Origin: Sipunculus nudus
Taxonomy: Eukaryota; Annelida; Sipuncula; Golfingiida; Sipunculidae
NCBI GenBank assembly: GCA_026874595.1
Contig: CM049306.1
Span: 43,586,019-43,650,018, forward strand
Length of the DNA stretch: 64,000 nucleotides
Reading direction: 5' to 3'
Numbering within the stretch: position 1 is the stretch's first letter; every line of letters begins with the position of its first letter. The notes below the pieces were generated by a model. The model saw only the letters and a program-made list of their open reading frames with translations. It did no database searches and was not told the DNA's origin. This document shows positions 1-59,739 of the stretch, piece by piece. The position numbers and the translations under genes are program-made.

Positions 1-75
1 ACGGACGGACAGACGGACGGACGACGGACAATGGACCACGACTATAGCTCAGATGACTTATAGTCAGCTGAGCTA
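1..75 (+). repeat. 3' end of a hairpin-ended interspersed repeat (family H)
   Basis: This is a GACGGAC-rich tract followed by a near-perfect 31-nt hairpin at 45-75, with arms TAGCTCAGATGACT and AGTCAGCTGAGCTA (13 of 14 pairs) around a TAT loop. The same 75 bases recur ending at 59218, and close relatives end at 59452, 60338 and 37850. The element body lies left of the window. It is followed directly by a variant B repeat fragment. Confidence 0.85.
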
Positions 76-465: not shown

Positions 466-1720
466 CATACGCGGGTGATCAACATGCTTGCGAAAATCGA
501 AGATTTCCGGCAAGCAATAAAGTTTGGATTGACTGTGCCTCCAACATGTATGATCATAGACAGGGCCCGGAGAGGCCGTCACGCACCGCTGCACACGCCG
601 GCCGCCCACCGTAAGGACCCTGTCGCCACTTGCGGCAATTGCGCGGGTCTTCGTGGTTTGGCGAAAAACGGCGCGAGATTTGACGAGACTTACAATATGA
701 CCCCTGAATGTGACTGCGAGTGTCAGGCGCTACCCAACGCTGAAAACCATGTGTCTGTAGCGTAAAAAACGACAGAATTATAGGCATTTCTTTGAATGGT
801 CTCGTGTTCTCGTTTCACGAGAAACGGTGCGAGATATGACGAGCCTTTCTATTGAATGACTAAGAAGTAAACTAATGCTATCTAACGCCAAAAACCAGAG
901 CGTTCTATCGCAAATATTGACAGAGACAGAAGCAGGAACACTCCGTATTTCAGATTGTCAAGTTTAACCCCAAAATTTGGTAACCATGGTAACGGCAGCA
1001 CAAGGCTAAATGTACGAAGGAATAAGGCAATGATCCTAGTTTTAGATGCGACAAAAAAAATTCTTCTATGCTAAATATTTTTTTAGATATTGCGGAAAAA
1101 TGATACGTTGTAGTGTTTCCAGTACCACGCCCCCTGGTGGCTATTTCCGAAAAATGAAAAAACAAGTTCGAGATAATACAGAACAACAGAAAATATGTCA
1201 CTTTCAGAACCTTAGCTGTAAAAACTGCCACCTGTAAATCGTATTTAATGAAATCTCGAAAAGTCTCATTTGACGACAAATGGCACGAGATTTTGCGAGA
1301 CTTACATTAATTTCGCATAGAGCATATTAAATGCTACGCAATACAAAAAACTAGACCTCTCTAACTTGAATAATGAGAAATTTGGAGGGAAATTTTCGAA
1401 TTTTCTGAATTTCCCCCAAAAATACGTTACCATGGTAACCATTGACCGGAAAAATTTGCCAGCACTTGGAAAGCTAACATAGTGAGGAATAAAATGAGCT
1501 ACAGATTATGCGGCTACGATTATTATTGACAAAGATATGAAGAAAGTAAAAATTTTAGGTTTTTTGGTGACCCTGACCTTGACCTTTGACCGATCATGAC
1601 CAAAAACAATAGGCTCCGAGGAGAACCAATCTTACACTTGATGCATAAGTTTCAGAGCGATTGCTTAAAAACTGTGGCCTGTAGCGCGTGTACATACAGA
1701 CAAACAGACAGACAAACAAA
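466..1720. repeat. Variant B unit of the 1.28-kb tandem repeat (left copy)
   Basis: It runs from CATACGCGGGTG to the next CAAACAAAC tract, about 1.26 kb. B differs from A by consistent substitutions (for example CAGGCGCTACCCAACGC against CAGCCGCTATCCAGCGC, and GATACGTTG against GATAAGTTG) and is nearly identical to the right-flanking copy at 17344-18613. The unit ends at a CAAA tract where the array phase is lost. Confidence 0.9.
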
Positions 1721-2300
1721 CTAGACGACCAGAGGTCGAACGCTTGCCGGAAATGGCTGGAAATAAGACAGCGAAACAAGCAGGAGAAACTGTCGCTTTT
1801 CTATAAATTGAATGACTTTCAGAGCGATTGCTGGAAAGTGTTGCATGTTGAATGACATATATCACACAAAAGATCATGAAAGTAGACTTGGCTCAAAACA
1901 GACAGATATACTGACACATCTGAGATAACAGACTACCAGAAAAAAAGTTGGGAACGTAAATAGAAGCAAAATGAGTAGGTAGAGTTTATAGTGTCGGAGG
2001 TATGGCCAATATATGGTAGCGGCCATATCCCAAACATTAAAAATTTCTTTTGAGACTTTAATGTAAGAAATAAGATGTTGTTCCAGTTCCAAAAGGATTC
2101 CCTGAAAACTGTGTCCTGAAAATTGCTAACTGCAAGAAGCAAGGTCCAGCAAAGCAGGCGAAATTTAGGATCACTGACAAACAGACAGACATACTCAAAA
2201 AATGACACAAGAATAAGACCAGATGACCTACTCAGATTATCGAGTAGACTCAGAGGAAGAAAATAAATCATAGTTTTCAATTGGCTACACTGCTTTTTTA
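1721..2300. repeat. Degenerate relatives of the tandem repeat family
   Basis: The segment holds scattered blocks shared with 5090-5733 and with the array unit: a CAGAGCGATTGCT block, ACAGACAGACATACT, and GACTCAGAGGAAGAAAATAA. An inverted copy of the array motif ATTTCCGGCAAGCG lies at about 1741-1754. No gene is visible. Confidence 0.6.
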
Positions 2301-2395
2301 AAGTTGCATTTACCCAATCTCTTCTTATAAAACTGGCAGAAACCTACCATAGAATAATTCTTGTAAAGTTTAAACCAATCAGCTTAACAGTTTCA

Positions 2396-2900
2396 TCATA
2401 AAACAGAGTATAACCTGGAGACTAAAATTACATTTTTTTCTTGTAAAAAACAGATCAATGCAAGTGGCGCCACCAATACCTCAATTTCAGATATGACATA
2501 TGAGACAAATATAGGTATAAAATTTGGTAATGACAGCTCTAGCCGTTTCTGAGATTTTAATTTTAGTTTGCTTTTTTGGCAGATGACTAAGTTCAACCTC
2601 CTGTTTAATCTCCGAACTGAAACCAATCGAACAAACTTGAGATAGATTGATCAAGAGGTCATTTCTTAGAAATATTGGCCTATTTGGCCGGACAGTTTCG
2701 TAGAAGAAAATTTTTAAAGTTTTTTTTAGCTTTTTCCCTATAAAATCTCAGTAAATGCAGAAAGCCAAAAAATAAACAAAATCCGATAGTGCTTTTCAGA
2801 TGACTGTTCATTTACAAAAAAATTGGTAATGCTAGTTCCTGCCGTTTTTGAGATAACTATGGTTAACCTACAGACGACGGACGACGCTGCACCATAGGGG
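2396..2900. repeat. Degenerate interspersed repeat with GACGGACGAC end
   Basis: It contains a block (AAGTGGCGCCACCA and following bases) that resembles the interior of the element at 36149-37850. It ends with GTTAACCTACAGACGACGGACGACG near 2856-2886, the same style of end as family H but without a clear hairpin. The long minus-strand reading frame across it is part of the repeat. Confidence 0.5.
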
Positions 2901-4733
2901 ACTCTTAAATTCTATGCATGCCACACATACCAGAGGCCAAAGCGAGGCCAATGGGGAATAACAAAGACACGTGCTTACTTGTCACAGCAGTAACACATGT
3001 GCTGATACAGTTTAGCCCAGCAAGGCAGGTCGTGTCACAGCCTATTCTGTTCTCTCATCCTACTCATTTACTAATTGGACATCAGATTTGATTTTTCATA
3101 AGTTTTCATAAGTGATCCAGGTAGAAAGAAACAGTGGAAATTACTAATTAATTCATACATCTGGACGAGGGACTCTTTGTGATTGTGTATTCATATGTTC
3201 CTGGTTTGGTCTGCTGTTTGTTATATTTGTTCATAGAATTAAGTAAATGAACAACCATTTTAGAACAATGATTTTTAATGATCTGTATCAATTTATAAAG
3301 GCACATATTAAAATATCATTTTTACATGGTCCATGCCCTCATTTGGTTTTGCCTTACCTTTTTTATGTACGTGTCAATATATTTTAAAATACTGTGCTGT
3401 TTCACAAAATCTGTTTCCATACACATGCAATTAATTGTACTTTATTAAAATAAATAAATAACATAAATAAATAATGACAGAAGACTACCAACATATTTAA
3501 CTTGATGGTGACATTTAGCAAAGATCTGCATATAGTTTTTACCAGCGAAGCATTGATCCCCTTACTGGTTTATAGATAATAGATACATTGGTATGTCTCA
3601 ATTGGTTGAAGGGGCTTATATTTTGTATTACCAAAACTTATTGTCATCATTTCCTCATTTTTACTTGAGGCCCTCTAAGATGGCCTCTGTGGATAGCTTT
3701 AAGGCCCTTAAATTACATGATTGCGAAACAATTATAGATATATCCCCACATGACCGGCCTAGACCCACTGCAATTTAAAGAATATTTAACTCATGCAATT
3801 CTTGTGTCACCGTTTCCATTGTTTGTCAATGCAGTTTATGTCTACAGCTGTAGGACACGCCGTCAGTATATTTTAACTCTTTATTCATAACAAATATGAA
3901 GTTTTAGTATATGAGACATTACTTTTCATATTCGATTTATAAAGAATTTTTGAAGTAACTAACCTGAGTTAAAAGGATTGGAGCTGGTGAAGTGTTGAGC
4001 ATTAATTAAAATGAATATATTATTCCATAATTCATACCTTACATATTTTTATAATTTTTTCTCAAATTATGTAAAGTCTTGCGGGAAAAAGGTATCATTT
4101 ATAAAATTCTGTTTCTGCCCATGCACTAATATAATCCTTGCCATGCCTAGGAACTTACCATATCACTATCTAATGAGGAGCGATATATTTTTTTTAAAAT
4201 GACCTGTGACATAGTGTTTCACTTGAAAGCTATGTGTTGGTTATGCCACTAAAAATACAGAGTATTTTCTATTGGTGCCAGATACAGCATACCTACATCT
4301 ATATTTTTAATAGGCTTGTGAATAGAAAACATTTCATAATTTCATTTCAGAACACTTTTAACAATCACAGAGGCAGACATGTTTCATTTATGCTTTATTA
4401 GTCTTTATTAAGTTAATGACTTTATAATGGCAGTATAAGCAGCGTACTGCCGAAAGTGTTTTGGTGTGTGTGTCTCTTGGTGCCTACTGTGCATGAAACA
4501 AGAAACTTAGTATTAATGTACACCATCAGAGGAACCATGCACAGACCACCTCATTCTGTGCCGTCTGGAATGTGTATCAGTCAGCACCTGTGCCCGACAC
4601 TTGTATATCTTGATATTTTAATTGACCTCGGGCAATTAATGGCATCCTGTGGTTTGATTCATAGCTAGCATAGACCGTAGAGCCAAGTAGATGTGAGCCC
4701 AATTAAGGGTCTTTAACTTTATTATGTTAAGAG
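2901..4733. other. AT-rich unique sequence, nothing recognised
   Basis: No exon with convincing splice sites, no inverted-repeat element and no RNA gene was seen. Reading frames of 60-70 codons here look like chance. Confidence 0.5.
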
Positions 4734-4927
4734 TCACTGGAAAGTACCTCCCTTACAAGTCGGGTTCTCATTGTGCTCATAGCAGCAGATTCCTTTGGAT
4801 TTACACTTCTTTCCAGATGTTTTTAACAAAATTTGTTTGTAAGCATCCACAAATTTGAAGTGGATAAATGGAACAACTGACAGGTCTGTGTTGCTGTACA
4901 TAGCCATGGTGAGTGAGCACATGCTCC
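4734..4927 (-). CDS. Possible terminal exon of an unidentified minus-strand gene
   Basis: On the minus strand an AG acceptor at 4928-4929 precedes an open frame of 64 codons, read after two bases (phase-1 entry). It ends at a TGA at 4736-4734 and is followed within 20 bases by AATAAA (4723-4718). The C-terminal part is Cys-rich, with GKKCKSKGICC and then a CKGG motif. The opening MCSLTMAMY is weakly reminiscent of the Met-Cys copper-ligand segment of ascorbate-dependent copper type II monooxygenases (PHM/DBH family). That is only a resemblance and I do not assign the family. The polypyrimidine tract is poor, and the phase does not fit FANK1 exon 4, so it is not the end of that gene. It could be chance. 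Confidence 0.25.
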
Positions 4928-4943
4928 CTGTTATTCCCAGTAA

Positions 4944-5089
4944 GCCTCGCTTTCGCTAGCTGATTAATTATTCATGAGGAATATTAAGAATCCCCTATAG
5001 CATAAGCTCACAGATTCGCTAATAATCTATTTCGAGATATAACTGTAAGACATAAGATTTAATAGTTTAAAAAAGATTCTTTCAAAATT
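4944..5089. other. Short AT-rich unique spacer
   Basis: Nothing recognised between the possible exon and the degenerate repeats. Confidence 0.4.
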
Positions 5090-5733
5090 GTGGCCTGTAG
5101 AATTCTATTAGTGAGACGGAAGAACAAACAAGCAGGTGAATTTGAGGACAACTGACAAACAAACAGACATACTGACAAAGGGACACAAGATGAAGACAAG
5201 ATGACTTAACCAGGTCATGGGGAAGACTCAGAGGAAGAAAATAAGGTATAGTTTATGTAATTGAGGTTTCCAGTTTTGGAGATATGGCCAAATAATGATA
5301 TATTGGGGATGTTCGACTGCAGCGCCCTCTAGTGGACATATCCTGGAGACGACAGATGCGTTTCGTGATATTAGTGAATGGCATAAGATGTAATCGTTTC
5401 AAAAGGATTCCTAAAAAAATCTGGCTTGTTGATTGCTATATGTGAGATGCAAGAACCAGCAAGTAGGCGAATTTGAAGATAACTGACAAACAGACAGACA
5501 TACTGAAAAAAGTAACACAAGATGTACACCAGATGACGTTACCATATTTTGCAGAAGGCCAAGAGAAAGAAAATAAGTTACTGTTTGTGTAACATAGGTT
5601 TACTCTTACGGAAATATGTTTGGATGTTTGATTTGTTTGGATGTGTCTAGTGCAACGCCCCCTAGCAGCCATATCCGGAAAATGAAACATAAGTTTTGAG
5701 ATATTAGTGTAAAACATAAGAAGAAGGAACAAA
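5090..5733. repeat. Two degenerate ~330-bp repeats leading into the array
   Basis: Two successive copies share the order CTGTRGCCTGTAG-like block, ACAGACATACTGA, GAGGAAGAAAATAAG, then a CGCCCYCTAG core with GCCATATCC. The core matches CGCCCCCTGGTGGCTATTTCC inside the array unit. The second copy runs directly into the array through an ACAAACATACGCGGGTG junction at 5728-5743. Confidence 0.65.
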
Positions 5734-7015
5734 CATACGCGGGTGAACAACATACTTGCGAAAATCGAAGATTTCCGGCAAGCAATAAAGTATGGACTGT
5801 GCCTCCAACATGTATGATCATAGATGGGGCCCGGAGAGGCCGTCACGGACCGCTGCACACGCCGGCCGCCCACCGTAAGGACCCTGTCGCCACTTGCGGC
5901 GACGGCGAGTGTCTTCGTGGTATGGCGAAAAACGGCGCGAGATTTGACGAGACTAACAATGTGACCCCTGAATGTGACTGCGAGTGTCAGCCGCTATCCA
6001 GCGCTGCAAACCATGTGTCTGTAGCGTGAAAAATGACAGAATTATAGGCATTTCTTTGAATGGTCACGTGTTCTCGTTTCACGAGAAACGGTGCGAGATA
6101 TGACGAGCCTTTCTATTGAATGACTAAGAAGTAAACTAATGCTATCTAACGCCAAAAACCAGAGCGTTCTATCGCAAATATTGACAGAGACAGAAGCAGG
6201 AACACTCCGTATTTCAGATTGTCAAGTTTTACCCCAAAATTTGGTAACCATGGTAACGGCAGCACAAGGCTAAATGTACGAAGGAATAAGGCAATGATCC
6301 TAATTTTAGATGCGACAAAAAAAATTGTTCTATGCTTAATATTTTTTTAGATATTGCGGAAAAATGATAAGTTGTAGTGTTTCCAGTACCACGCCCCCTG
6401 GTGGCTATTTCCGAAAAATGAAAAAACAAGTTCGAGATAATACAGAACAACAGAAAATATGTCACTTTCAGAACCTTAGCTGTAAAACTGCCACCTGTAA
6501 ATCGTATTTAATGAAATATTGAAAAGTCTCATTTGACGACAAATGGCACGAGATTTTGCGAGACTTACATTAATTTCGCACAGAGCATATTAAATGCTAT
6601 GCATTGCAAAAAACTAGACCTCTTTAACTTGAATAATGAGAAATTTGGAGGGAAATTTTCGAATTTTCTGAATTTCCCCCAAAAATACGTTACCATGGTA
6701 ACCATTGACCGGAAAAATTTGCCAGCACTTGGAAAGCTAACATAGGGAGGAATAAAATGAGCTACAGATTATGCGGATACGATTATTATTGACAAAGATA
6801 TGAAGAAAGTAAAAATTTTAGGTTTTTTGGTGACCCTGACCTTGACCTTTGACCGATCATGACCAAAAACAATAGGCTCCGAGGAGAACCAATCTTACAC
6901 TTAATGCATAAGTTTCAGAGCGATTGCTTAAAAACTGTGGCCTGTAGAGCGTGTACATACAGACAAACAAACAGACAGACAGACAGACAGACAAACAAAC
7001 AAACAAACAAACAAA
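5734..7015. repeat. First, most diverged unit of the A array
   Basis: Compared with the inner units it carries GGGTGAACAAC for GGGTGATCAAC, GATGGGGCCC for GACAGGGCCC, GGCGACGGCGAGTG for GGCAATTGCGCGGG, GTATGGCG for GTTTGGCG, and TATTGAAAAG for TATCGAAAAG. This is the pattern expected of an array edge that escapes homogenisation. Confidence 0.85.
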
Positions 7016-8297
7016 CATACGCGGGTGATCAACATACTTGCGAAAATCGAAGATTTCCGGCAAGCAATAAAGTATGGACTGTGCCTCCAACATGTATGAT
7101 CATAGACAGGGCCCGGAGAGGCCGTCACGCACCGCTGCACACGCCGGCCGCCCACCGTAAGGACCCTGTCGCCACTTGCGGCAATTGCGCGGGTCTTCGT
7201 GGTTTGGCGAAAAACGGCGCGAGATTTGACGAGACTTACAATATGACCCCTGAATGTGACTGCGAGTGTCAGCCGCTATCCAGCGCTGCAAACCATGTGT
7301 CTGTAGCGTGAAAAATGACAGAATTATAGGCATTTCTTTGAATGGTCACGTGTTCTCGTTTCACGAGAAACGGTGCGAGATATGACGAGCCTTTCTATTG
7401 AATGACTAAGAAGTAAACTAATGCTATCTAACGCCAAAAACCAGAGCGTTCTATCGCAAATATTGACAGAGACAGAAGCAGGAACACTCCGTATTTCAGA
7501 TTGTCAAGTTTTACCCCAAAATTTGGTAACCATGGTAACGGCAGCACAAGGCTAAATGTACGAAGGAATAAGGCAATGATCCTAATTTTAGATGCGACAA
7601 AAAAAATTGTTCTATGCTTAATATTTTTTTAGATATTGCGGAAAAATGATAAGTTGTAGTGTTTCCAGTACCACGCCCCCTGGTGGCTATTTCCGAAAAA
7701 TGAAAAAACAAGTTCGAGATAATACAGAACAACAGAAAATATGTCACTTTCAGAACCTTAGCTGTAAAACTGCCACCTGTAAATCGTATTTAATGAAATA
7801 TCGAAAAGTCTCATTTGACGACAAATGGCACGAGATTTTGCGAGACTTACATTAATTTCGCACAGAGCATATTAAATGCTATGCATTGCAAAAAACTAGA
7901 CCTCTTTAACTTGAATAATGAGAAATTTGGAGGGAAATTTTCGAATTTTCTGAATTTCCCCCAAAAATACGTTACCATGGTAACCATTGACCGGAAAAAT
8001 TTGCCAGCACTTGGAAAGCTAACATAGGGAGGAATAAAATGAGCTACAGATTATGCGGATACGATTATTATTGACAAAGATATGAAGAAAGTAAAAATTT
8101 TAGGTTTTTTGGTGACCCTGACCTTGACCTTTGACCGATCATGACCAAAAACAATAGGCTCCGAGGAGAACCAATCTTACACTTAATGCATAAGTTTCAG
8201 AGCGATTGCTTAAAAACTGTGGCCTGTAGAGCGTGTACATACAGACAAACAAACAGACAGACAGACAGACAGACAAACAAACAAACAAACAAACAAA

Positions 8298-11200
8298 CAT
8301 ACGCGGGTGATCAACATACTTGCGAAAATCGAAGATTTCCGGCAAGCAATAAAGTATGGACTGTGCCTCCAACATGTATGATCATAGACAGGGCCCGGAG
8401 AGGCCGTCACGCACCGCTGCACACGCCGGCCGCCCACCGTAAGGACCCTGTCGCCACTTGCGGCAATTGCGCGGGTCTTCGTGGTTTGGCGAAAAACGGC
8501 GCGAGATTTGACGAGACTTACAATATGACCCCTGAATGTGACTGCGAGTGTCAGCCGCTATCCAGCGCTGCAAACCATGTGTCTGTAGCGTGAAAAATGA
8601 CAGAATTATAGGCATTTCTTTGAATGGTCACGTGTTCTCGTTTCACGAGAAACGGTGCGAGATATGACGAGCCTTTCTATTGAATGACTAAGAAGTAAAC
8701 TAATGCTATCTAACGCCAAAAACCAGAGCGTTCTATCGCAAATATTGACAGAGACAGAAGCAGGAACACTCCGTATTTCAGATTGTCAAGTTTTACCCCA
8801 AAATTTGGTAACCATGGTAACGGCAGCACAAGGCTAAATGTACGAAGGAATAAGGCAATGATCCTAATTTTAGATGCGACAAAAAAAATTGTTCTATGCT
8901 TAATATTTTTTTAGATATTGCGGAAAAATGATAAGTTGTAGTGTTTCCAGTACCACGCCCCCTGGTGGCTATTTCCGAAAAATGAAAAAACAAGTTCGAG
9001 ATAATACAGAACAACAGAAAATATGTCACTTTCAGAACCTTAGCTGTAAAACTGCCACCTGTAAATCGTATTTAATGAAATATCGAAAAGTCTCATTTGA
9101 CGACAAATGGCACGAGATTTTGCGAGACTTACATTAATTTCGCACAGAGCATATTAAATGCTATGCATTGCAAAAAACTAGACCTCTTTAACTTGAATAA
9201 TGAGAAATTTGGAGGGAAATTTTCGAATTTTCTGAATTTCCCCCAAAAATACGTTACCATGGTAACCATTGACCGTAAAAATTTGCCAGCACTTGGAAAG
9301 CTAACATAGGGAGGAATAAAATGAGCTACAGATTATGCGGATACGATTATTATTGACAAAGATATGAAGAAAGTAAAAATTTTAGGTTTTTTGGTGACCC
9401 TGACCTTGACCTTTGACCGATCATGACCAAAAACAATAGGCTCCGAGGAGAACCAATCTTACACTTAATGCATAAGTTTCAGAGCGATTGCTTAAAAACT
9501 GTGGCCTGTAGAGCGTGTACATACAGACAAACAAACAGACAGACAGACAGACAGACAAACAAACAAACAAACAAACAAACATACGCGGGTGATCAACATA
9601 CTTGCGAAAATCGAAGATTTCCGGCAAGCAATAAAGTATGGACTGTGCCTCCAACATGTATGATCATAGACAGGGCCCGGAGAGGCCGTCACGCACCGCT
9701 GCACACGCCGGCCGCCCACCGTAAGGACCCTGTCGCCACTTGCGGCAATTGCGCGGGTCTTCGTGGTTTGGCGAAAAACGGCGCGAGATTTGACGAGACT
9801 TACAATATGACCCCTGAATGTGACTGCGAGTGTCAGCCGCTATCCAGCGCTGCAAACCATGTGTCTGTAGCGTGAAAAATGACAGAATTATAGGCATTTC
9901 TTTGAATGGTCACGTGTTCTCGTTTCACGAGAAACGGTGCGAGATATGACGAGCCTTTCTATTGAATGACTAAGAAGTAAACTAATGCTATCTAACGCCA
10001 AAAACCAGAGCGTTCTATCGCAAATATTGACAGAGACAGAAGCAGGAACACTCCGTATTTCAGATTGTCAAGTTTTACCCCAAAATTTGGTAACCATGGT
10101 AACGGCAGCACAAGGCTAAATGTACGAAGGAATAAGGCAATGATCCTAATTTTAGATGCGACAAAAAAAATTGTTCTATGCTTAATATTTTTTTAGATAT
10201 TGCGGAAAAATGATAAGTTGTAGTGTTTCCAGTACCACGCCCCCTGGTGGCTATTTCCGAAAAATGAAAAAACAAGTTCGAGATAATACAGAACAACAGA
10301 AAATATGTCACTTTCAGAACCTTAGCTGTAAAACTGCCACCTGTAAATCGTATTTAATGAAATCTCGAAAAGTCTCATTTGACGACAAATGGCACGAGAT
10401 TTTGCGAGACTTACATTAATTTCGCACAGAGCATATTAAATGCTATGCATTGCAAAAAACTAGACCTCTTTAACTTGAATAATGAGAAATTTGGAGGGAA
10501 ATTTTCGAATTTTCTGAATTTCCCCCAAAAATACGTTACCATGGTAACCATTGACCGGAAAAATTTGCCAGCACTTGGAAAGCTAACATAGGGAGGAATA
10601 AAATGAGCTACAGATTATGCGGATACGATTATTATTGACAAAGATATGAAGAAAGTAAAAATTTTAGGTTTTTTGGTGACCCTGACCTTGACCTTTGACC
10701 GATCATGACCAAAAACAATAGGCTCCGAGGAGAACCAATCTTACACTTAATGCATAAGTTTCAGAGCGATTGCTTAAAAACTGTGGCCTGTAGAGCGTGT
10801 ACATACAGACAAACAAACAGACAGACAGACAGACAGACAAACAAACAAACAAACAAACAAACATACGCGGGTGATCAACATACTTGCGAAAATCGAAGAT
10901 TTCCGGCAAGCAATAAAGTATGGACTGTGCCTCCAACATGTATGATCATAGACAGGGCCCGGAGAGGCCGTCACGCACCGCTGCACACGCCGGCCGCCCA
11001 CCGTAAGGACCCTGTCGCCACTTGCGGCAATTGCGCGGGTCTTCGTGGTTTGGCGAAAAACGGCGCGAGATTTGACGAGACTTACAATATGACCCCTGAA
11101 TGTGACTGCGAGTGTCAGCCGCTATCCAGCGCTGCAAACCATGTGTCTGTAGCGTGAAAAATGACAGAATTATAGGCATTTCTTTGAATGGTCACGTGTT

Positions 11201-13425
11201 CTCGTTTCACGAGAAACGGTGCGAGATATGACGAGCCTTTCTATTGAATGACTAAGAAGTAAACTAATGCTATCTAACGCCAAAAACCAGAGCGTTCTAT
11301 CGCAAATATTGACAGAGACAGAAGCAGGAACACTCCGTATTTCAGATTGTCAAGTTTTACCCCAAAATTTGGTAACCATGGTAACGGCAGCACAAGGCTA
11401 AATGTACGAAGGAATAAGGCAATGATCCTAATTTTAGATGCGACAAAAAAAATTGTTCTATGCTTAATATTTTTTTAGATATTGCGGAAAAATGATAAGT
11501 TGTAGTGTTTCCAGTACCACGCCCCCTGGTGGCTATTTCCGAAAAATGAAAAAACAAGTTCGAGATAATACAGAACAACAGAAAATATGTCACTTTCAGA
11601 ACCTTAGCTGTAAAACTGCCACCTGTAAATCGTATTTAATGAAATATCGAAAAGTCTCATTTGACGACAAATGGCACGAGATTTTGCGAGACTTACATTA
11701 ATTTCGCACAGAGCATATTAAATGCTATGCATTGCAAAAAACTAGACCTCTTTAACTTGAATAATGAGAAATTTGGAGGGAAATTTTCGAATTTTCTGAA
11801 TTTCCCCCAAAAATACGTTACCATGGTAACCATTGACCGTAAAAATTTGCCAGCACTTGGAAAGCTAACATAGGGAGGAATAAAATGAGCTACAGATTAT
11901 GCGGATACGATTATTATTGACAAAGATATGAAGAAAGTAAAAATTTTAGGTTTTTTGGTGACCCTGACCTTGACCTTTGACCGATCATGACCAAAAACAA
12001 TAGGCTCCGAGGAGAACCAATCTTACACTTAATGCATAAGTTTCAGAGCGATTGCTTAAAAACTGTGGCCTGTAGAGCGTGTACATACAGACAAACAAAC
12101 AGACAGACAGACAGACAGACAAACAAACAAACAAACAAACAAACATACGCGGGTGATCAACATACTTGCGAAAATCGAAGATTTCCGGCAAGCAATAAAG
12201 TATGGACTGTGCCTCCAACATGTATGATCATAGACAGGGCCCGGAGAGGCCGTCACGCACCGCTGCACACGCCGGCCGCCCACCGTAAGGACCCTGTCGC
12301 CACTTGCGGCAATTGCGCGGGTCTTCGTGGTTTGGCGAAAAACGGCGCGAGATTTGACGAGACTTACAATATGACCCCTGAATGTGACTGCGAGTGTCAG
12401 CCGCTATCCAGCGCTGCAAACCATGTGTCTGTAGCGTGAAAAATGACAGAATTATAGGCATTTCTTTGAATGGTCACGTGTTCTCGTTTCACGAGAAACG
12501 GTGCGAGATATGACGAGCCTTTCTATTGAATGACTAAGAAGTAAACTAATGCTATCTAACGCCAAAAACCAGAGCGTTCTATCGCAAATATTGACAGAGA
12601 CAGAAGCAGGAACACTCCGTATTTCAGATTGTCAAGTTTTACCCCAAAATTTGGTAACCATGGTAACGGCAGCACAAGGCTAAATGTACGAAGGAATAAG
12701 GCAATGATCCTAATTTTAGATGCGACAAAAAAAATTGTTCTATGCTTAATATTTTTTTAGATATTGCGGAAAAATGATAAGTTGTAGTGTTTCCAGTACC
12801 ACGCCCCCTGGTGGCTATTTCCGAAAAATGAAAAAACAAGTTCGAGATAATACAGAACAACAGAAAATATGTCACTTTCAGAACCTTAGCTGTAAAACTG
12901 CCACCTGTAAATCGTATTTAATGAAATCTCGAAAAGTCTCATTTGACGACAAATGGCACGAGATTTTGCGAGACTTACATTAATTTCGCACAGAGCATAT
13001 TAAATGCTATGCATTGCAAAAAACTAGACCTCTTTAACTTGAATAATGAGAAATTTGGAGGGAAATTTTCGAATTTTCTGAATTTCCCCCAAAAATACGT
13101 TACCATGGTAACCATTGACCGGAAAAATTTGCCAGCACTTGGAAAGCTAACATAGGGAGGAATAAAATGAGCTACAGATTATGCGGATACGATTATTATT
13201 GACAAAGATATGAAGAAAGTAAAAATTTTAGGTTTTTTGGTGACCCTGACCTTGACCTTTGACCGATCATGACCAAAAACAATAGGCTCCGAGGAGAACC
13301 AATCTTACACTTAATGCATAAGTTTCAGAGCGATTGCTTAAAAACTGTGGCCTGTAGAGCGTGTACATACAGACAAACAAACAGACAGACAGACAGACAG
13401 ACAAACAAACAAACAAACAAACAAA
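8298..13425. repeat. Duplicated dimer (2,564-bp higher-order repeat) inside the A array
   Basis: Units at 8298 and 10862 share GACCGTAAAA (near 9271 and 11836) where the others have GACCGGAAAA. Units at 9580 and 12144 share AAATCTCG (near 10361 and 12925) where the others have AAATATCG. The two private variants alternate with a 2,564-bp spacing, showing that a two-unit block was copied as one. Confidence 0.85.
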
Positions 13426-14658
13426 CATACGCGGGTGATCAACATACTTGCGAAAATCGAAGATTTCCGGCAAGCAATAAAGTATGGACTGTGCCTCCAA
13501 CATGTATGATCATAGACAGGGCCCGGAGAGGCCGTCACGCACCGCTGCACACGCCGGCCGCCCACCGTAAGGACCCTGTCGCCACTTGCGGCAATTGCGC
13601 GGGTCTTCGTGGTTTGGCGAAAAACGGCGCGAGATTTGACGAGACTTACAATATGACCCCTGAATGTGACTGCGAGTGTCAGCCGCTATCCAGCGCTGCA
13701 AACCATGTGTCTGTAGCGTGAAAAATGACAGAATTATAGGCATTTCTTTGAATGGTCACGTGTTCTCGTTTCACGAGAAACGGTGCGAGATATGACGAGC
13801 CTTTCTATTGAATGACTAAGAAGTAAACTAATGCTATCTAACGCCAAAAACCAGAGCGTTCTATCGCAAATATTGACAGAGACAGAAGCAGGAACACTCC
13901 GTATTTCAGATTGTCAAGTTTTACCCCAAAATTTGGTAACCATGGTAACGGCAGCACAAGGCTAAATGTACGAAGGAATAAGGCAATGATCCTAATTTTA
14001 GATGCGACAAAAAAAATTGTTCTATGCTTAATATTTTTTTAGATATTGCGGAAAAATGATAAGTTGTAGTGTTTCCAGTACCACGCCCCCTGGTGGCTAT
14101 TTCCGAAAAATGAAAAAACAAGTTCGAGATAATACAGAACAACAGAAAATATGTCACTTTCAGAACCTTAGCTGTAAAACTGCCACCTGTAAATCGTATT
14201 TAATGAAATATCGAAAAGTCTCATTTGACGACAAATGGCACGAGATTTTGCGAGACTTACATTAATTTCGCACAGAGCATATTAAATGCTATGCATTGCA
14301 AAAAACTAGACCTCTTTAACTTGAATAATGAGAAATTTGGAGGGAAATTTTCGAATTTTCTGAATTTCCCCCAAAAATACGTTACCATGGTAACCATTGA
14401 CCGGAAAAATTTGCCAGCACTTGGAAAGCTAACATAGGGAGGAATAAAATGAGCTACAGATTATGCGGATACGATTATTATTGACAAAGATATGAAGAAA
14501 GTAAAAATTTTAGGTTTTTTGGTGACCCTGACCTTGACCTTTGACCGATCATGACCAAAAACAATAGGCTCCGAGGAGAACCAATCTTACACTTAATGCA
14601 TAAGTTTCAGAGCGATTGCTTAAAAACTGTGGCCTGTAGAGCGTGTACATACAGACAA

Positions 14659-14659
<1 letters not shown>

Positions 14660-14692
<33 letters not shown>
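14660..14692. repeat. (CAGA)n expansion by one tetramer
   Basis: The GACA/CAGA tract in this unit is four bases longer than in its neighbours. It shifts the recurrent 150-codon frame, which opens in every other inner unit, and makes this unit 1,286 bp. The same unit also has CACATGCCGG where others have CACACGCCGG. Confidence 0.85.
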
Positions 14693-14693
<1 letters not shown>

Positions 14694-17343
14694 AACAAAC
14701 AAACAAACAAACATACGCGGGTGATCAACATACTTGCGAAAATCGAAGATTTCCGGCAAGCAATAAAGTATGGACTGTGCCTCCAACATGTATGATCATA
14801 GACAGGGCCCGGAGAGGCCGTCACGCACCGCTGCACATGCCGGCCGCCCACCGTAAGGACCCTGTCGCCACTTGCGGCAATTGCGCGGGTCTTCGTGGTT
14901 TGGCGAAAAACGGCGCGAGATTTGACGAGACTTACAATATGACCCCTGAATGTGACTGCGAGTGTCAGCCGCTATCCAGCGCTGCAAACCATGTGTCTGT
15001 AGCGTGAAAAATGACAGAATTATAGGCATTTCTTTGAATGGTCACGTGTTCTCGTTTCACGAGAAACGGTGCGAGATATGACGAGCCTTTCTATTGAATG
15101 ACTAAGAAGTAAACTAATGCTATCTAACGCCAAAAACCAGAGCGTTCTATCGCAAATATTGACAGAGACAGAAGCAGGAACACTCCGTATTTCAGATTGT
15201 CAAGTTTTACCCCAAAATTTGGTAACCATGGTAACGGCAGCACAAGGCTAAATGTACGAAGGAATAAGGCAATGATCCTAATTTTAGATGCGACAAAAAA
15301 AATTGTTCTATGCTTAATATTTTTTTAGATATTGCGGAAAAATGATAAGTTGTAGTGTTTCCAGTACCACGCCCCCTGGTGGCTATTTCCGAAAAATGAA
15401 AAAACAAGTTCGAGATAATACAGAACAACAGAAAATATGTCACTTTCAGAACCTTAGCTGTAAAACTGCCACCTGTAAATCGTATTTAATGAAATATCGA
15501 AAAGTCTCATTTGACGACAAATGGCACGAGATTTTGCGAGACTTACATTAATTTCGCACAGAGCATATTAAATGCTATGCATTGCAAAAAACTAGACCTC
15601 TTTAACTTGAATAATGAGAAATTTGGAGGGAAATTTTCGAATTTTCTGAATTTCCCCCAAAAATACGTTACCATGGTAACCATTGACCGGAAAAATTTGC
15701 CAGCACTTGGAAAGCTAACATAGGGAGGAATAAAATGAGCTACAGATTATGCGGATACGATTATTATTGACAAAGATATGAAGAAAGTAAAAATTTTAGG
15801 TTTTTTGGTGACCCTGACCTTGACCTTTGACCGATCATGACCAAAAACAATAGGCTCCGAGGAGAACCAATCTTACACTTAATGCATAAGTTTCAGAGCG
15901 ATTGCTTAAAAACTGTGGCCTGTAGAGCGTGTACATACAGACAAACAAACAGACAGACAGACAGACAGACAAACAAACAAACAAACAAACAAACATACGC
16001 GGGTGATCAACATACTTGCGAAAATCGAAGATTTCCGGCAAGCAATAAAGTATGGACTGTGCCTCCAACATGTATGATCATAGACAGGGCCCGGAGAGGC
16101 CGTCACGCACCGCTGCACACGCCGGCCGCCCACCGTAAGGACCCTGTCGCCACTTGCGGCAATTGCGCGGGTCTTCGTGGTTTGGCGAAAAACGGCGCGA
16201 GATTTGACGAGACTTACAATATGACCCCTGAATGTGACTGCGAGTGTCAGCCGCTATCCAGCGCTGCAAACCATGTGTCTGTAGCGTGAAAAATGACAGA
16301 ATTATAGGCATTTCTTTGAATGGTCACGTGTTCTCGTTTCACGAGAAACGGTGCGAGATATGACGAGCCTTTCTATTGAATGACTAAGAAGTAAACTAAT
16401 GCTATCTAACGCCAAAAACCAGAGCGTTCTATCGCAAATATTGACAGAGACAGAAGCAGGAACACTCCGTATTTCAGATTGTCAAGTTTTACCCCAAAAT
16501 TTGGTAACCATGGTAACGGCAGCACAAGGCTAAATGTACGAAGGAATAAGGCAATGATCCTAATTTTAGATGCGACAAAAAAAATTGTTCTATGCTTAAT
16601 ATTTTTTTAGATATTGCGGAAAAATGATAAGTTGTAGTGTTTCCAGTACCACGCCCCCTGGTGGCTATTTCCGAAAAATGAAAAAACAAGTTCGAGATAA
16701 TACAGAACAACAGAAAATATGTCACTTTCAGAACCTTAGCTGTAAAACTGCCACCTGTAAATCGTATTTAATGAAATATCGAAAAGTCTCATTTGACGAC
16801 GAATGGCACGAGATTTTGCGAGACTTACATTAATTTCGCACAGAGCATATTAAATGCTATGCATTGCAAAAAACTAGACCTCTTTAACTTGAATAATGAG
16901 AAATTTGGAGGGAAATTTTCGAATTTTCTGAATTTCCCCCAAAAATACGTTACCATGGTAACCATTGACCGGAAAAATTTGCCAGCACTTGGAAAGCTAA
17001 CATAGGGAGGAATAAAATGAGCTACAGATTATGCGGATACGATTATTATTGACAAAGATATGAAGAAAGTAAAAATTTTAGGTTTTTTGGTGACCCTGAC
17101 CTTGACCTTTGACCGATCATGACCAAAAACAATAGGCTCCGAGGAGAACCAATCTTACACTTAATGCATAAGTTTCAGAGCGATTGCTTAAAAACTGTGG
17201 CCTGTAGAGCGTGTACATACAGACAAACAAACAGACAGACAGACAGACAGACAAACAAACAAACAAACAAACAAACATACGCGGGTGATCAACATACTTG
17301 CGAAAATCGAAGATTTCCGGCAAGCAACAAACAAACAAACAAA

Positions 17344-18613
17344 CATACGCGGGTGATCAACATGCTTGCGAAAATCGAAGATTTCCGGCAAGCAATAAAG
17401 TTTGGATTGACTGTGCCTCCAACATGTATGATCATAGACAGGGCCCGGAGAGGCCGTCACGCACCGCTGCACACGCCGGCCGCCCACCGTAAGGACCCTG
17501 TCGCCACTTGCGGCAATTGCGCGGGTCTTCGTGGTTTGGCGAAAAACGGCGCGAGATTTGACGAGACTTACAATATGACCCCTGAATATGACTGCGAGTG
17601 TCAGGCGCTACCCAACGCTGAAAACCATGTGTCTGTAGCGTAAAAAACGACAGAATTATAGGCATTTCTTTGAATGGTCTCGTGTTCTCGTTTCACGAGA
17701 AACGGTGCGAGATATGACGAGCCTTTCTATTGAATGACTAAGAAGTAAACTAATGCTATCTAACGCCAAAAACCAGAGCGTTCTATCGCAAATATTGACA
17801 GAGACAGAAGCAGGAACACTCCGTATTTCAGATTGTCAAGTTTAACCCCAAAATTTGGTAACCATGGTAACGGCAGCACAAGGCTAAATGTACGAAGGAA
17901 TAAGGCAATGATCCTAGTTTTAGATGCGACAAAAAAAATTCTTCTATGCTAAATATTTTTTTAGATATTGCGGAAAAATGATACGTTGTAGTGTTTCCAG
18001 TACCACGCCCCCTGGTGGCTATTTCCGAAAAATGAAAAAACAAGTTCGAGATAATACAGAACAACAGAAAATATGTCACTTTCAGAACCTTAGCTGTAAA
18101 ACTGCCACCTGTAAATCGTATTTAATGAAATCTCGAAAAGTCTCATTTGACGACAAATGGCACGAGATTTTGCGAGACTTACATTAATTTCGCATAGAGC
18201 ATATTAAATGCTACGCAATACAAAAAACTAGACCTCTCTAACTTGAATAATGAGAAATTTGGAGGGAAATTTTCGAATTTTCTGAATTTCCCCCAAAAAT
18301 ACGTTACCATGGTAACCATTGACCGGAAAAATTTGCCAGCACTTGGAAAGCTAACATAGTGAGGAATAAAATGAGCTACAGATTATGCGGCTACGATTAT
18401 TATTGACAAAGATATGAAGAAAGTAAAAATTTTAGGTTTTTTGGTGACCCTGACCTTGACCTTTGACCGATCATGACCAAAAACAATAGGCTCCGAGGAG
18501 AACCAATCTTACACTTGATGCATAAGTTTCAGAGCGATTGCTTAAAAACTGTGGCCTGTAGCGCGTGTACATACAGACAAACAGACAGACAAACAAACAA
18601 ACAAACAAACAAA
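17344..18613. repeat. Variant B unit of the tandem repeat (right copy)
   Basis: This 1,270-bp unit carries all the B-specific substitutions of the left copy, 15 kb away, with a few private changes (CTGAATATGAC here, CTGAATGTGAC on the left). It is joined to the A array through a CAAACAAACAAACAAA bridge at 17327-17343. Confidence 0.92.
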
Positions 18614-18726
18614 CATACGCGGGTGATCAACATGCTTGCGAAAATCGAAGATTTCCGGCAAGCAACAAACAGACATCCGCGACTGACCAACCTGCTTGCA
18701 GAAATCGAAGATTTCCGGCAAGCAAT
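18614..18726. repeat. Two tandem ~60-bp copies of the CGGGTGA...CCGGCAAGCAA segment
   Basis: The segment ending CGAAGATTTCCGGCAAGCAA occurs at 18614-18665 and, more diverged, at 18667-18725. The array phase ends here and a 141-bp repeat begins immediately after CAAGCAA. Confidence 0.85.
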
Positions 18727-19277
18727 GAAATTGGATAATATTTAGGAAAGTTGTCGCACGGAAACAAAAACCTGACAGACAGACAAAGTGACAGACAGAA
18801 GCCAGACACTCCAAAACCAATCCCAACCAAGGTAAGCATGAGAGCAATTACTGAACAAAATTTAAATGAAATTGGATAATATTTAGGAAAGTTATGGCAC
18901 GGAAACGAAAACCTGACAGACAGACAAAGTGACAGACAGAAGCCAGACACTCCAAAACCAATCCCAACCAAGGTAAGCATGAGAGCAATTACTGAACAAA
19001 ATTTAAATGAAATTGGATAATATTTAGGAAAGTTATCGCACGGAAACGAAAACCTGACAGACAGACAAAGTGACAGACAGAAGCCAGACACTCCAAAACC
19101 AATCCCAACCAAGGTAAGCATTACAGCAATCACTGACCTAAATCTGGAAGAAATTGGATAATATTAAGGAAAGTTATCGCACGGAAACGAAAACCTGAGG
19201 AATGGACAGAGAGATGGACAGACAGACAGACAGAAAAACCCAAATCAATGTCCCCCGCATCTGCGGAGTAGGGGACA
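18727..19277. repeat. 141-bp tandem repeat derived from a TIR element
   Basis: Units start with GAAATTGGATAATAT at 18727, 18868, 19009 and 19150, exactly 141 bp apart. The last is truncated into the element's terminal hairpin TGTCCCCCGCA...TGCGG...GGGGACA ending at 19277. The unit (AACCTGACAGACAGAC, CCAATCCCAACCAAGGTA) matches the interior of the single-copy elements at 20186-20560 and 42676-43063. The minus-strand open frame of 168 codons simply runs through the repeats. Confidence 0.9.
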
Positions 19278-19543
19278 AAAAATTAACCTACTGGTAATAT
19301 TGTAGCTTAGGACTTTTTGTTGTCCATAATTGTATGTTTATTTGTTGGGATGTTTGTCTGATTGTATGACTGCACAAAAATACTGAACAGTAAATTCTAA
19401 AAAAAAAATGTGTGTGTGTGTGCGGAGGGGGAGGGGATGGACCTAAAAATACCCCATTAAACTTTGGTCCAGATAAAAAGCTAGATTTAGCAAGATTGTT
19501 TTCTCCCCTTTGTTAACTGTTAACAAGTGAATTACTCTTACAG
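19278..19543. other. Unique spacer with short (TG)n tract
   Basis: It contains an A run, a TGTGTGTGTG run and a GGAGGGGGAGGGG stretch near 19401-19440. The last ~15 bases form the acceptor of the plus-strand exon candidate. Confidence 0.5.
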
Positions 19544-20161: not shown

Positions 20162-20185
20162 GAACAAGCAAATTTGTAGAATTTA

Positions 20186-20560
20186 TGTCCCCTGCTTCTG
20201 CTTCTAATTACGTTTTAGTTTTTACTTGTCCCCTGAAGATGTCTCCACATGTCAGAGTGGCTGTGTTTTAGGTTTCGTTGTCTCCTGAAGATGTCTCTGC
20301 ATGTCATAAGTTTTGTTGTGAATTCAGAACAAAAGGAGAAACTTTTTTGTTTTGGAGCTAATGATAACAGATTTTCAGACAGACACTCAAAAACCAATCC
20401 CAACCAAGGTATGCATAAGATCAATCACTGAGCCAAATTTAAATGAAATCAGATAATATTAAGGAAAGTTATCACATAGAAATGAAAACCTGATGGGCAG
20501 ACAGACAGACAGACAAATAAACCAAAATCAGTTTCCATCATTCTGTGGATGTGGGGGACA
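20186..20560. mobile_element. MITE-like TIR element, TGTCCCC type (375 bp)
   Basis: It starts TGTCCCCTGCTTCTG and ends GGATGTGGGGGACA, imperfect inverted termini. It is homologous over its length to 42676-43063, including CCCTGAAGATGTCTCCACATGTCA, the CCAATCCCAACCAAGGTATG block and a GACAGACAGACAGACA tract. No transposase frame is present. Confidence 0.8.
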
Positions 20561-20696
20561 ATAATATATGAGGAGCATAAAATGACTGAACCTACTCAAT
20601 ATAACCTTTCTGAGAGGCTTGCATCAGAGGGCTGGAACCATATTTGTCTGGCGTATCCACATGAACATCACTGAAAAAGAAGTAAAAATGCCAGTA

Positions 20697-36148: not shown

Positions 36149-37850
36149 CAAGTGACCCATGGGTCATGACGCTCAGCCGACTGACAAGTTGACAATATTT
36201 CCTTGCACAGACAACTAATGAAGATAATGTATGTGGCATCATTGTTCATGCATATTAGCTCAAGTTCATCAAGACCCATCAGCACAACAAATTTGATGAC
36301 AATCCAACCAGCCTTTCCTGAGGAATCTGGCAATTTCTGTGTATTTTGCATTATTTCTGGGGTGCTCAAACATACCTGAAAAGAATATAGGTCACATTGA
36401 CCAAATTTCAGGTTTCTAGGGAGAACTTTTGAGGAACTCTCAGGATGTCAAGTTAGAAGATTCTGGGACCAATGGTTATGATTTGTGCCCTACTTTCAAT
36501 TATTCCGAGGGCTGCTTATAGGCCCCATAGCTTAGAAAATATGGGTAACAGAGACCTCAATTCAAGTTTCCAAGGAGACTTTTCATGAACCTTCCTGGAT
36601 TTTAGGATAGAACATTCCAGGTCCAATGTTTATGATTTGTGCCAAACTTTGGTATCAAATTTAAATTATGCTGGGGTGCTTATAAGCCCAATAGCTCAGA
36701 ATATTGTTAACAGAGACCTAATTTCAAGTTTCCAAGGATATTGTTTACAGACCTCTCTGGATTCTAGGACCAATGGTTACAATTTGTGTACTGTTAACGG
36801 AAGACCACATCTTTGAAGGTCTCAAAATAGAGGGGGAAAAAATGTGTTTACATTTTTTTTTTAAATCCAGGTAGCGCCACAGTCTGCAAGAACTGATGAC
36901 ACATTCCATGATGAATATGCATGCAAAGAATAATGCCGATCAATGCATTAGTTGTTCAGATACTAGAGCTTTTGTATCAAATTTTTAGTTATAGCTATAA
37001 TTCGGACAATATAGATGACAGAGACCTAATTTCAGGTTTCCAAGGAGACTTTTCATGGGCCTCCCAGCATGTCAAGAAAAAAGATTCTAGGTCTAGTTGT
37101 TACGATTTGTGCCCTGTTAACACATGATGGCATCTTTTAAGGTCTCAAAATAGAGAAAAAAAATCGTAAAAAATTGTAAAAATACAAGTGGCGTCACCAG
37201 TCAGCATAAACTGATGAAACACTCCATGACCAATATCCATGCAAAGAATCATGGTGATCAATGCATTAGTTGTCCAGATACTTGAGTTTTGTATTAAATT
37301 TTTTATTATTCTAGGGGGTACCTCGGTGCCCTATAGCTTGAAGAATATGGGTTAAAGGGACCTAACTCCAGGTTTCCACAGAGACTTTTCATGGGCCTTT
37401 CTGGAAGTAAAGTTAAAAGATTCCAGGTCCAGTGGTTATGATTTGTGCCCTGTTAACAGATGATGGCATCTTTTAGAGTCTCAAAAATATAGAAAAAAAT
37501 GGAATAAATACAGGTGGTGCCACCAGTCTGCAGAAACTGATGAAACACTCCATGATCAATATCCATGCAAAAAATCATGGTGATCAATGCATTCAGATAC
37601 TTGAGCTGTTGTATCAAATTTTTCATTATTCTGGGGGGTACTTCGGAGCCCCACAGCTTGAAGAATATGGGTAACAGAGACCTAATTCCAGGTTTCCTAG
37701 GAGATTTTTCATGGACCACTCTGGATCTTAAGTTAGAAGATTCCAGGTCCAGTGGTTACAATTTGTGCCATGTTAACGGACAGATGGCCGGATGGCCGAC
37801 GGACAAAGAGTGATCGCAATAGCTCTGATGACTTACAGTCAGCTGAGCTA
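36149..37850 (+). repeat. Hairpin-ended element, family H, apparently full length (1.7 kb)
   Basis: It starts CAAGTGACCCATGGGTCATG, the family head seen at 55041 and 56601, and ends with the GACGGACAAAG tract and hairpin TAGCTCTGATGACT / AGTCAGCTGAGCTA (37820-37850). Inside, a block with AGAGACCTAATTTCAGG and a CTTTTCATGGG-like block recurs about five times (near 36549, 36711, 37019, 37356 and 37675). The 110-codon minus-strand frame at its left end belongs to the repeat. Confidence 0.75.
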
Positions 37851-42512: not shown

Positions 42513-42675
42513 TCTAAAATTTTATGGTTGTGAGAGTTAAACACATTATGTCTACTGTTAGGAAATGTCCATTCACAAAGCAAAGGAATGTAAAAGTATT
42601 CAAAAATATGATTTTCATAACAAGAGGAAAGGCTCCATCAAAATTAAGCAACTACAATAAACTTTGTGGAATTTA

Positions 42676-59453: not shown

Positions 59454-59739
59454 AATCATAAAATTTATCTAGTTTATGCACCAGCTGGGGGAGGGGGGGG
59501 GGGAGGGGTAGTGAAGGGCGGAGGGGAAGCCTGCTAGTAGTGGCCAAGCTGAGCCAAGGCAAGCTGCCTGGAGTAGGTTACATAACACAAGAGAAGGCTG
59601 TACCACTAGGTGGACTTGATGTAAACAACACTTGACATGGTGTATAAAAACTTGAGTAAAAGCTTCTCTTTTCAATCAATTCCTTTGAAATATCAGATTT
59701 TAAAAGATTAAACCTTTAAATCAACAATGCTTATAGGGA

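Follow-up and report, generated by a model that had tools for sequence, protein, structure and literature searches.

Structure of the locus

The window analysed here is a whole stretch of 64,000 bp from Sipunculus nudus. Four FANK1-like exons were found on its minus strand, using a query that we take to be the human FANK1 sequence. An exon search with consensus ankyrin found none, and no further ankyrin exon was found in the window past these four. Since the exons lie on the minus strand and the search of the window gave no later one, the tandem array and the nest of elements around it, which a preliminary description placed downstream of FANK1, are most likely located in a FANK1 intron. Rfam and tRNA searches of the window found nothing. 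The features are as follows.

1..74, minus strand: 5' end of family 1 (HINE-like, about 2.6 kb), inserted at an A/T run within a B unit, with its other end in L029
75..1720, minus strand: B units belonging to the sister element, left half of the target
1721..17327, minus strand: element A, a Helentron/HINE-like insertion of 15,607 bp, with its 3' end at 1721, its 5' end at 17327 and an exact 13-bp inverted repeat
1721..1754, minus strand: 3' end (RF) with CTAG terminus, palindrome and inverted subTIR (1742-1754), where the 13-mer has its sole copy on the plus strand of the window
1721..5727, minus strand: tail of 4,007 bp with diverged repeats of about 330 bp, also present in L013, L015, L016, L017 and L025 at 98.6-99.7%
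2898..4996, no strand assigned: passenger of 2,099 bp in the tail, with inverted ends, missing from short-tail relatives
5728..17327, minus strand: nine A units in tandem, with ten 5'-end hairpins as boundaries
17297..17327, minus strand: outer 5' end (LF) of element A, with subTIR, spacer and inverted repeat
17328..18665, minus strand: right half of the target, a B unit and the outer 5' end of element B
18666..18725, minus strand: 5' end of a third relative, C, with the microsatellite that received B
18726..19285, minus strand: family 2 remnant with 141-bp repeats and an end hairpin, marking the right edge of the nest
20586..20666, minus strand: last FANK1-like exon found in the window, with the nest beyond it in the direction of transcription

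The array is bounded by a transposon

The array lies inside a HINE insertion on the minus strand (element A), in which a 5' end stands at every unit boundary, ten in all, along with a 4-kb tail and only one 3' end. The subTIR match between the two ends is exact over 13 bp, 2 bp from the 5' terminus and 21 bp from the 3' terminus, and the 13-mer occurs once on the plus strand and 14 times on the minus strand of the window. As a control, 19,835 pairs of 60-bp segments were drawn at random from elsewhere in the window, and 7 of these pairs have an inverted word of at least 13 bp in common. Identical copies of the LF 29-mer are located at 5755, 7037, 8319, 9601, 10883, 12165, 13447, 14733 and 16015. 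In each 5' end a hairpin is followed by a (TTTG/TCTG)n microsatellite, of which the innermost 5' end (5755) has just a very short tract. The 3' palindrome has a 5-bp stem (CGACC TCT GGTCG) followed by TCTAG. Hairpins are predicted to fold at the element ends. The folding energy of the 3' palindrome alone is not significant, and for the two ends of A itself, 13 and 12 of 200 shuffles fold equally well (z -1.5 and -1.7).

Together, these are the marks of a HINE: a subTIR (about 11-15 bp expected), a 5' inverted repeat with a microsatellite, a 3' palindrome, a T-rich target without target duplication, and identical ends at many loci with differing flanks. A classical satellite, by comparison, is a long array without transposon ends, which is not what is found here.

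An exact empty site in a nest of sister elements

When position 1720 is joined to 17328, an intact B unit is restored, which across the join aligns gap-free to the neighbouring left B unit with 99.9% identity over 1,048 bp and measures 1,271 bp against 1,270 bp. Therefore, the two edges of "variant B" are the two halves of a target. Element A inserted without target loss in the TTTG/TCTG microsatellite beside the 5' hairpin of its sister B. Joining 1721 to 17326 leaves extra bases, while 1720 to 17328 is exact. Insertion between two T residues is compatible with the junction, and stays unproven because the junction is ambiguous by 3 bp.

Element B sits in C in the same way. The flanks of B in C agree with intact relatives, and the site is of the same type as that of A in B. 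The 3' end of B is taken to be C1:43578145, outside the window, an assignment that rests on the fit of the two sides because 320 bp between L031 and L029 are unread.

Copies across the genome and self-nesting

The same element, with one or more units and a full or short tail, recurs at other loci with its parts in unchanged order and with different flanks. The 34-mer of its 3' end has 2,285 genome copies (up to 3 mismatches), against 0 for the backward control. We sampled 38 exact matches, made up of the first 30 on C1-C3, some of which lie only a few kb apart or have similar flanks, and 8 hand-picked ones, one per contig, on the plus strand only. In 33 of the 38 (28 of 30 and 5 of 8), the 3' end lies directly against the microsatellite at a relative's 5' end, and all 33 share one orientation, with 0 in the opposite one. 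The flank test for nesting called 0 of 147 control stretches. Two of the 28 nested ends (L032, the window itself, and L033) matched references containing their own flank, and both flanks match the A unit too; the end in L033 coincides with one in L012. Five of the 38 sampled ends are not nested, and neither are 3 of 29 among hand-picked loci. Other 3' ends lie in A-rich sites or microsatellites.

There is about an even chance that this nesting reflects a preference for (TTTG/TCTG) microsatellites anywhere, the family being hit as the supplier of many of them. With a strict pattern and overlapping registers counted, 2,471 of 11,484 tract matches sit before a family 5' hairpin; the backward count of this search is the same microsatellite and hence no control. 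Because the target microsatellite is partly made of the family, a plain microsatellite preference would also yield much self-nesting. One of the five non-nested ends (L060) lies in a (CAGA)n tract with surroundings that look family 2-like by eye, as this preference would allow. However, the nested share (87%; 33 of 38) exceeds the 22% of tract matches that adjoin a hairpin; the latter figure is a minimum, as relatives that are interrupted or diverged escape the count.

More tentatively, the 5' end of the family may itself be a landing pad. New copies would land in sister 5' ends with the T-rich microsatellite as preferred target, possibly due to transposase already on the adjacent hairpin, so that hairpin-bound transposase on resident copies would steer newcomers into the neighbouring microsatellite in one orientation. 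If so, copies would stack as nested dolls and spare unrelated DNA, and the resulting direct 5' ends would seed kilobase-scale tandem arrays.

As for the enzyme, the genome contains 143 Helitron_like_N matches, some in open frames of more than 2,000 codons, against 0 in 14 control genomes; none of the 143 was linked to the ends of the element, and no autonomous partner with such ends was identified. The unit has no match in phages, the 5' hairpins of the element's family and of family 1 have none in prokaryote genomes, and the family-1 hairpin and a unit 24-mer have none in viral contigs. A 21-mer match in viral contigs was taken as chance, since nothing else in that contig matched the window at E 1e-3.

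Variation among units and growth of the array

Cut at the repeated hairpin in the assembly sequence, the array divides into nine A units, numbered A0 to A8; A6 is 1,286 bp long and each of the other eight 1,282 bp. The lag-1,282 self-identity is 0.996-1.0 across most 500-bp steps from 6001 to 16000, with a dip at about 13.0-14.5 kb because one unit is longer by 4 bp. The mean substitution difference among A1-A8 is 0.11%. The left edge unit, A0, differs from A1 by 12 substitutions, 11 of which lie within 5825-5961. There are identical dimers in the array, with A2 = A4 and A3 = A5. Within the unit, positions 476-605, 633-822 and 1092-1267 align pairwise at 62-66%. Between the two B units, of which one is pieced together from both sides of the A insertion, the differences are 1 substitution and 1 indel. 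B units lie on both sides of the array (75-1720 and 17328-18665) and differ from A units by 1.95% on average with 23 fixed substitutions; 23 of the 24 sites separating B from most A units are fixed, with A and B abutting. At one site the base of B is found in A3 and A5, which could be due to exchange. A 152-aa open frame of the unit was rejected as a gene: it reads through the microsatellite, the unit that has gained 4 bp carries an altered version of it, and differences between A and B occur in it at every codon position.

From the above, the preliminary description was right about the unit lengths, the diverged left edge unit, the distinct flanking variant and the internal duplications. The array that it gave as 5734..17326 is real, with proper limits at 5728-17327 and a left B block that begins at 75. 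Its unit length was called unusual, but monomers above 1 kb are not exceptional, for example the Helitron-linked monomer of 2,077 bp tabulated for the Pacific oyster (PMC8268682). Recent amplification is supported as well, since units within a locus are closer than units between loci and CpG is undepleted. At C47 full units differ by 0.79% within the locus, and by 0-0.31% at C5, C6, C15, C34 and in the B array that lies left of the window, while A1-A8 of the window differ by 0.78-0.86% from the nearest unit of another locus. The CpG observed/expected ratio is 1.1 in the units and 0.34 over 19301-64000, where single 1-kb windows are as high as 1.11.

The array might have grown as follows. The basic element would consist of a 3' end, tail, 5' end, unit and 5' end, with two direct 5' ends 1.28 kb apart. 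Rep/helicase supplied in trans would start at the 5' hairpin and move one strand. Replication restarting from a 5' end, or passing it without reaching the 3' end, could multiply the unit to nine; alternatively, unequal exchange between the direct repeats could do so. We give slightly less than an even chance to growth by unequal exchange or replication slippage between the direct 5'-end repeats instead of rolling-circle replication before insertion. The identical dimers A2-A3 and A4-A5 indicate a two-unit duplication, and same-locus units are closer to one another than to units elsewhere, both as exchange or slippage would have it. On the other side, adjacent A and B units have hardly mixed, and plant arrays that combine many 5' ends with a single 3' end have been attributed to rolling-circle amplification (PMC12628747, citing Xiong et al. 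2016).

An assembly error, by expansion or misjoin, is an improbable source of the nine copies: the differences among units are order-specific, the ends and the empty site are exact, and multi-unit copies are present at other loci.

Possible role in a probable FANK1 intron

If the nest is in a FANK1 intron, as is most likely, its effect there is probably neutral or mildly harmful. We regard it as very unlikely that the array is a chromatin or enhancer element of FANK1, a reading that starts from one putative CTCF-core-like and two putative X-box-like motifs per unit. The former, CCACCAGGGGGCG, occurs once per unit in 11 units, on the minus strand throughout, and GTTACCATGGTAAC-like palindromes occur about twice per unit; both are above shuffles, which overstate the significance because unit copying multiplies the motifs. 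A CTCF-bearing macrosatellite (DXZ4-like) would have CTCF bound in each unit; here each unit has a core-like motif. In a squid, a CCCTC-like motif is reported to be enriched at TAD boundaries (PMC9023564). Against such a role, the A insertion is young.

Origin of the array and implications

Taken together, we consider it very likely that the array is the inside of one recent non-autonomous Helentron-like (HINE) insertion in a sister element, with its growth and targeting inferred as set out above. A free-standing satellite with variants A and B, shaped by unequal crossing over only and without transposition, would fit the tandem order, the near identity, the dimer A2-A3 = A4-A5, the more diverged edge unit and the B base in A3 and A5, but it is scarcely credible given the exact empty site with inverted terminal repeats, the recurrence of the bounded element and its tail between different flanks at other loci, and the 23 of 24 B-versus-A sites fixed despite abutment. 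As a full account, a satellite alone is refuted; unequal exchange is possible for growth of the array within the element. What had been described as an unrecognised satellite is thus a transposon interior with recognisable ends, an exact empty site and copies elsewhere in the genome.

Usually described separately, the nesting of transposons, Helitron arrays in which many 5' ends share one 3' end, and satellites with long units come together in this HINE insertion, on the strength of an exact empty site and of copies sampled from the whole genome. If sister 5' ends are regularly chosen, the family would have an inbuilt safe harbour as well as a path by which a transposon becomes a satellite. 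Some caution is also suggested, in that kilobase "satellites" of animal assemblies may be interiors of transposons.

Comparison with known systems

The element resembles Cg_HINE of Crassostrea gigas (PMC7492417), which has a 5' subTIR with inverted repeat and microsatellite, a 3' subTIR with palindrome, a T-rich target without target duplication, internal tandem repeats and a single orientation of the array to the ends. That survey covered monomers of 100-500 bp between the ends, mostly 140-180 bp, compared with about 1.28 kb here, and unlike Cg_HINE a full 5' end lies inside each unit here. Insertion in repeats or other transposons is mentioned for Cg_HINE, whereas near-regular targeting of relatives' 5' microsatellites is not described in the available text of the survey.

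Many 5' ends with one 3' end are also known from plants, in tandem Helitron arrays (Xiong et al. 2016 via PMC12628747) which consist of truncated Helitrons and come from a paper on centromeric Helitrons, to judge by its title. In contrast, the array here is Helentron-like, is most likely intronic in an animal gene and has an exact empty site in a sister. FoHeli of Fusarium (PMC5148889) likewise has Helitron2-type ends and several 5' ends with one 3' end, for which self-insertion was proposed as the cause; there, a number of copies are reported, with 5' duplications that are typically short (<200 bp), compared with 2,285 3' ends genome-wide and 33 of 38 sampled ends nested here. The shuffled loci of oysters (PMC12628747, PMC11136912) are similar in that tandemised, truncated Helitron parts are inserted in one another, with Helitron-linked satellites and satellites with monomers above 1 kb; in the available parts of these sources no single preferred landing site in sister copies is named.

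Array and nested insertions

The 1,282-bp array (5728-17327) reported in the preliminary description is real and lies close to the position proposed there: in most steps across ~6-16 kb, self-identity at a 1,282-base lag approaches 1, and one unit matches the others in tandem. The count of nine units (A0-A8) also stands when the array is cut at the repeated hairpin; eight units are 1,282 bp long and the other is 1,286 bp. Units A1-A8 show a mean substitution of 0.11%, four substitutions being polymorphic among their 10,256 bases, and A2 is identical to A4 and A3 to A5, which is a duplicated pair of units. The left-edge unit is diverged as described, since A0 differs from A1 by 12 substitutions (11 of them within 5825-5961), and the internal duplications are found at unit positions 476-605, 633-822 and 1092-1267, mutually alignable at 62-66%.

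The flanking "variant B" units are present at both edges. If 1720 is joined directly to 17328, the B unit becomes continuous: it aligns gaplessly at 99.9% with the neighbouring B unit along the 1,048 bp that span the join, and measures 1,271 bp (1,270 bp in the neighbour). Therefore, these edges are two halves of the target of insertion A (1721-17327, minus strand). The A/B junction is ambiguous by three bases, the T/T boundary being one option. B is set apart from most A units at 24 sites; the difference is fixed at 23 of them, and at the remaining one the B base is present in A3 and A5.

The B array extends leftward beyond the window (L029, a stretch of the same assembly). A 3' end was found at C1:43578145 (L031); when its outer flank is placed directly against window position 18666, the product is a microsatellite and hairpin start as in intact relatives. 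We take this 3' end as probably B's own; the short-tail distance fits, judged from sequence on either side of a 320-bp interval between L031 and L029. A ~2.6-kb family-1 copy (another HINE-like family) interrupts a B unit at an A/T run; one of its ends is at window 1-74 and the other in L029. As the junctions read, A is in B, B is in C (a third relative) and family 1 is in B.

Other families also occur in the window. Family-1 5' ends with (ACGG)n microsatellite and hairpin are located at 56605-60337 and 37776-37850; two of them (59144-59218 and 59378-59452) are 234 bp apart, possibly another case of many 5' ends. Tandem repeats of ~320 bp (36371-37850) terminate in a diverged family-1 end. Short, seemingly complete copies of family 2 (the 141-bp-repeat family), with inverted ends around GTCCCCTGCTTCTG, are at 20184-20560 and 42674-43063.

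Terminal structures

Every unit boundary carries the same minus-strand module, in which a 13-bp sequence is followed, after a short loop, by a near-complementary inverted repeat, then by ~21 bp and a TTTG/TCTG microsatellite. The 13-mer GCTTGCCGGAAAT has 14 minus-strand copies in the window and one plus-strand copy (at 1742), which adjoins a small palindrome and CTAG. Among 19,835 pairs of 60-bp stretches drawn at random from 20-64 kb of the window as a control, 7 share an inverted word of at least 13 bp. Oyster HINEs (non-autonomous Helentrons) are described as having a 5' subterminal inverted repeat (subTIR), an inverted repeat and a microsatellite at one end and, at the opposite end, a palindrome with an inverted subTIR (PMC7492417; PMC4067079); the boundary module and 3' end of A follow this plan. 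The hairpin energy is weak at A's own two ends (z -1.5 and -1.7) and stronger for C, family 1 and family 2 (z -3.0 to -4.4).

Insertion into relatives

The 3'-end pattern (34 bases, at most 3 mismatches) has 2,285 copies in the genome, and the backward pattern has none. In 28 of 30 3' ends, the first exact matches by genome order with the window's own included, the outer flank is a relative's 5'-end microsatellite, as it is in 5 of 8 additional ends, which were hand-picked on the plus strand alone, a single end from each contig between C4 and C12. These 38 ends are not all independent, some being a few kb apart or having like flanks, and two of the 28 (the window, L032, and L033) matched a reference built from their own locus, both flanks matching the A unit too. 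The flank test called 0 of 147 control stretches from window DNA outside the array. Orientation is identical in all 33 nested ends, with none reversed; L034 differs from the rest of these in that its tract lies outward of the relative's hairpin. As for the un-nested ends, L050 and L054 have a common flank, which terminates in an A run; L061 and L062 are in A-rich sites; and L060 is in a (CAGA)n tract with surroundings that look family-2-like by eye. Among hand-picked loci and the window, 26 of 29 ends adjoin family sequence.

In places, 5' ends are clustered at 52-60 bp spacing (seven in L010), consistent with repeated insertion into one tract. Under a strict pattern with overlapping registers counted, 2,471 of 11,484 tract matches adjoin a hairpin. 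The transposase may recognize the sister hairpin or may simply favour the microsatellite.

Copies elsewhere and local amplification

A unit search of the assembly (1.43 billion bases, 153 contigs) gave at least 141 matches. We examined 20 stretches, 19 from unit matches (each of three pairs among them representing opposite edges of a single array) and one from DNA left of the window. The order of 3' end, tail, 5' end, unit(s) and 5' end was found again at other loci. The full 4,007-bp tail (98.6-99.7%) is in L013, L015, L016, L017 and L025, the short form without the 2,099-bp passenger in L010, L011, L012, L014, L018, L019, L021, L023 and L027, and partial or more diverged tails in L020, L022, L024 and L026. 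The passenger (2898-4996, 2,099 bp) lies inside A's tail and has inverted ends; one set of copies has it. A single unit is flanked by two 5' ends in L011, L013, L016, L017 and L019, and two units lie between them in L014 and L021.

Units of one locus diverge by 0-0.31% in five cases and by 0.79% in another, while the closest unit of any other locus stands 0.78-0.86% away from A1-A8. This indicates that every array was amplified on the spot or in its immediate source. At C1:290232-307143 lies an array of a different subfamily, with 5' ends ~1.3 kb apart. In C9:39713-64227 (minus strand) and C9:472223-521792 (plus strand), unit relatives are spaced ~9.72 kb apart as a higher-order repeat.

The CpG observed/expected ratio is 1.1 in A units and 1.1-1.2 in B units, 0.43-0.59 in parts of A's tail, and 0.34 for 19301-64000 (1-kb windows there: mean 0.33, maximum 1.11). 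The undepleted CpG of the A and B units suggests young or unmethylated DNA. These units thus look young and A's tail seems of greater age, so that a younger array may be carried by an older body.

Genomic context and unit motifs

Using a human FANK1 sequence as query, we found four FANK1-like exons:

47397-47215, minus strand, first exon found, match to human FANK1
from 25718, minus strand, second exon found, match to human FANK1, donor outside the stretch inspected
24637-24536, minus strand, third exon found, match to human FANK1
20666-20586, minus strand, fourth exon found, match to human FANK1

Splice signals were seen by eye at these exons, except for the second exon's donor, and no later ankyrin exon was found at E <1 within the window. 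The four minus-strand exons with no later one in the window indicate that the nest most likely lies in the intron following the fourth, and not downstream of the gene.

Eleven units each contain one CTCF-core-like motif (e.g. 8956-8968) and about two X-box-like palindromes (e.g. 8808-8821, 9253-9266). A cluster of TGACC half-sites is also in the units, and an extra CTCF-core-like match is in the tail at 5323-5335. A regulatory role of these motifs has a low probability.

Possible mechanism and comparison with known systems

Helitron_like_N has 143 matches in the genome, some within open frames of >2,000 codons, which makes movement in trans by a candidate genome-encoded Helitron Rep plausible. 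Nesting would place 5' ends in direct repeat, and the DNA between them would then be multiplied by replication or unequal exchange. Because of the identical dimers (A2-A3 and A4-A5), we favour at least one exchange step in the growth of the array.

Plant Helitron arrays that combine many 5' ends with a single 3' end, a form that the A array shares, have been ascribed to rolling-circle replication once the 3' terminator is lost (Xiong et al. 2016, as cited in PMC12628747). In Fusarium, self-insertion was proposed to account for copies in which several 5' ends accompany one 3' end (PMC5148889). Both processes, self-insertion and replication or exchange, may act at the A locus. Nested and tandemised Helitrons are already known. 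A family with copies mostly in sister 5' microsatellites was not found in the portions of open-licence literature searched.
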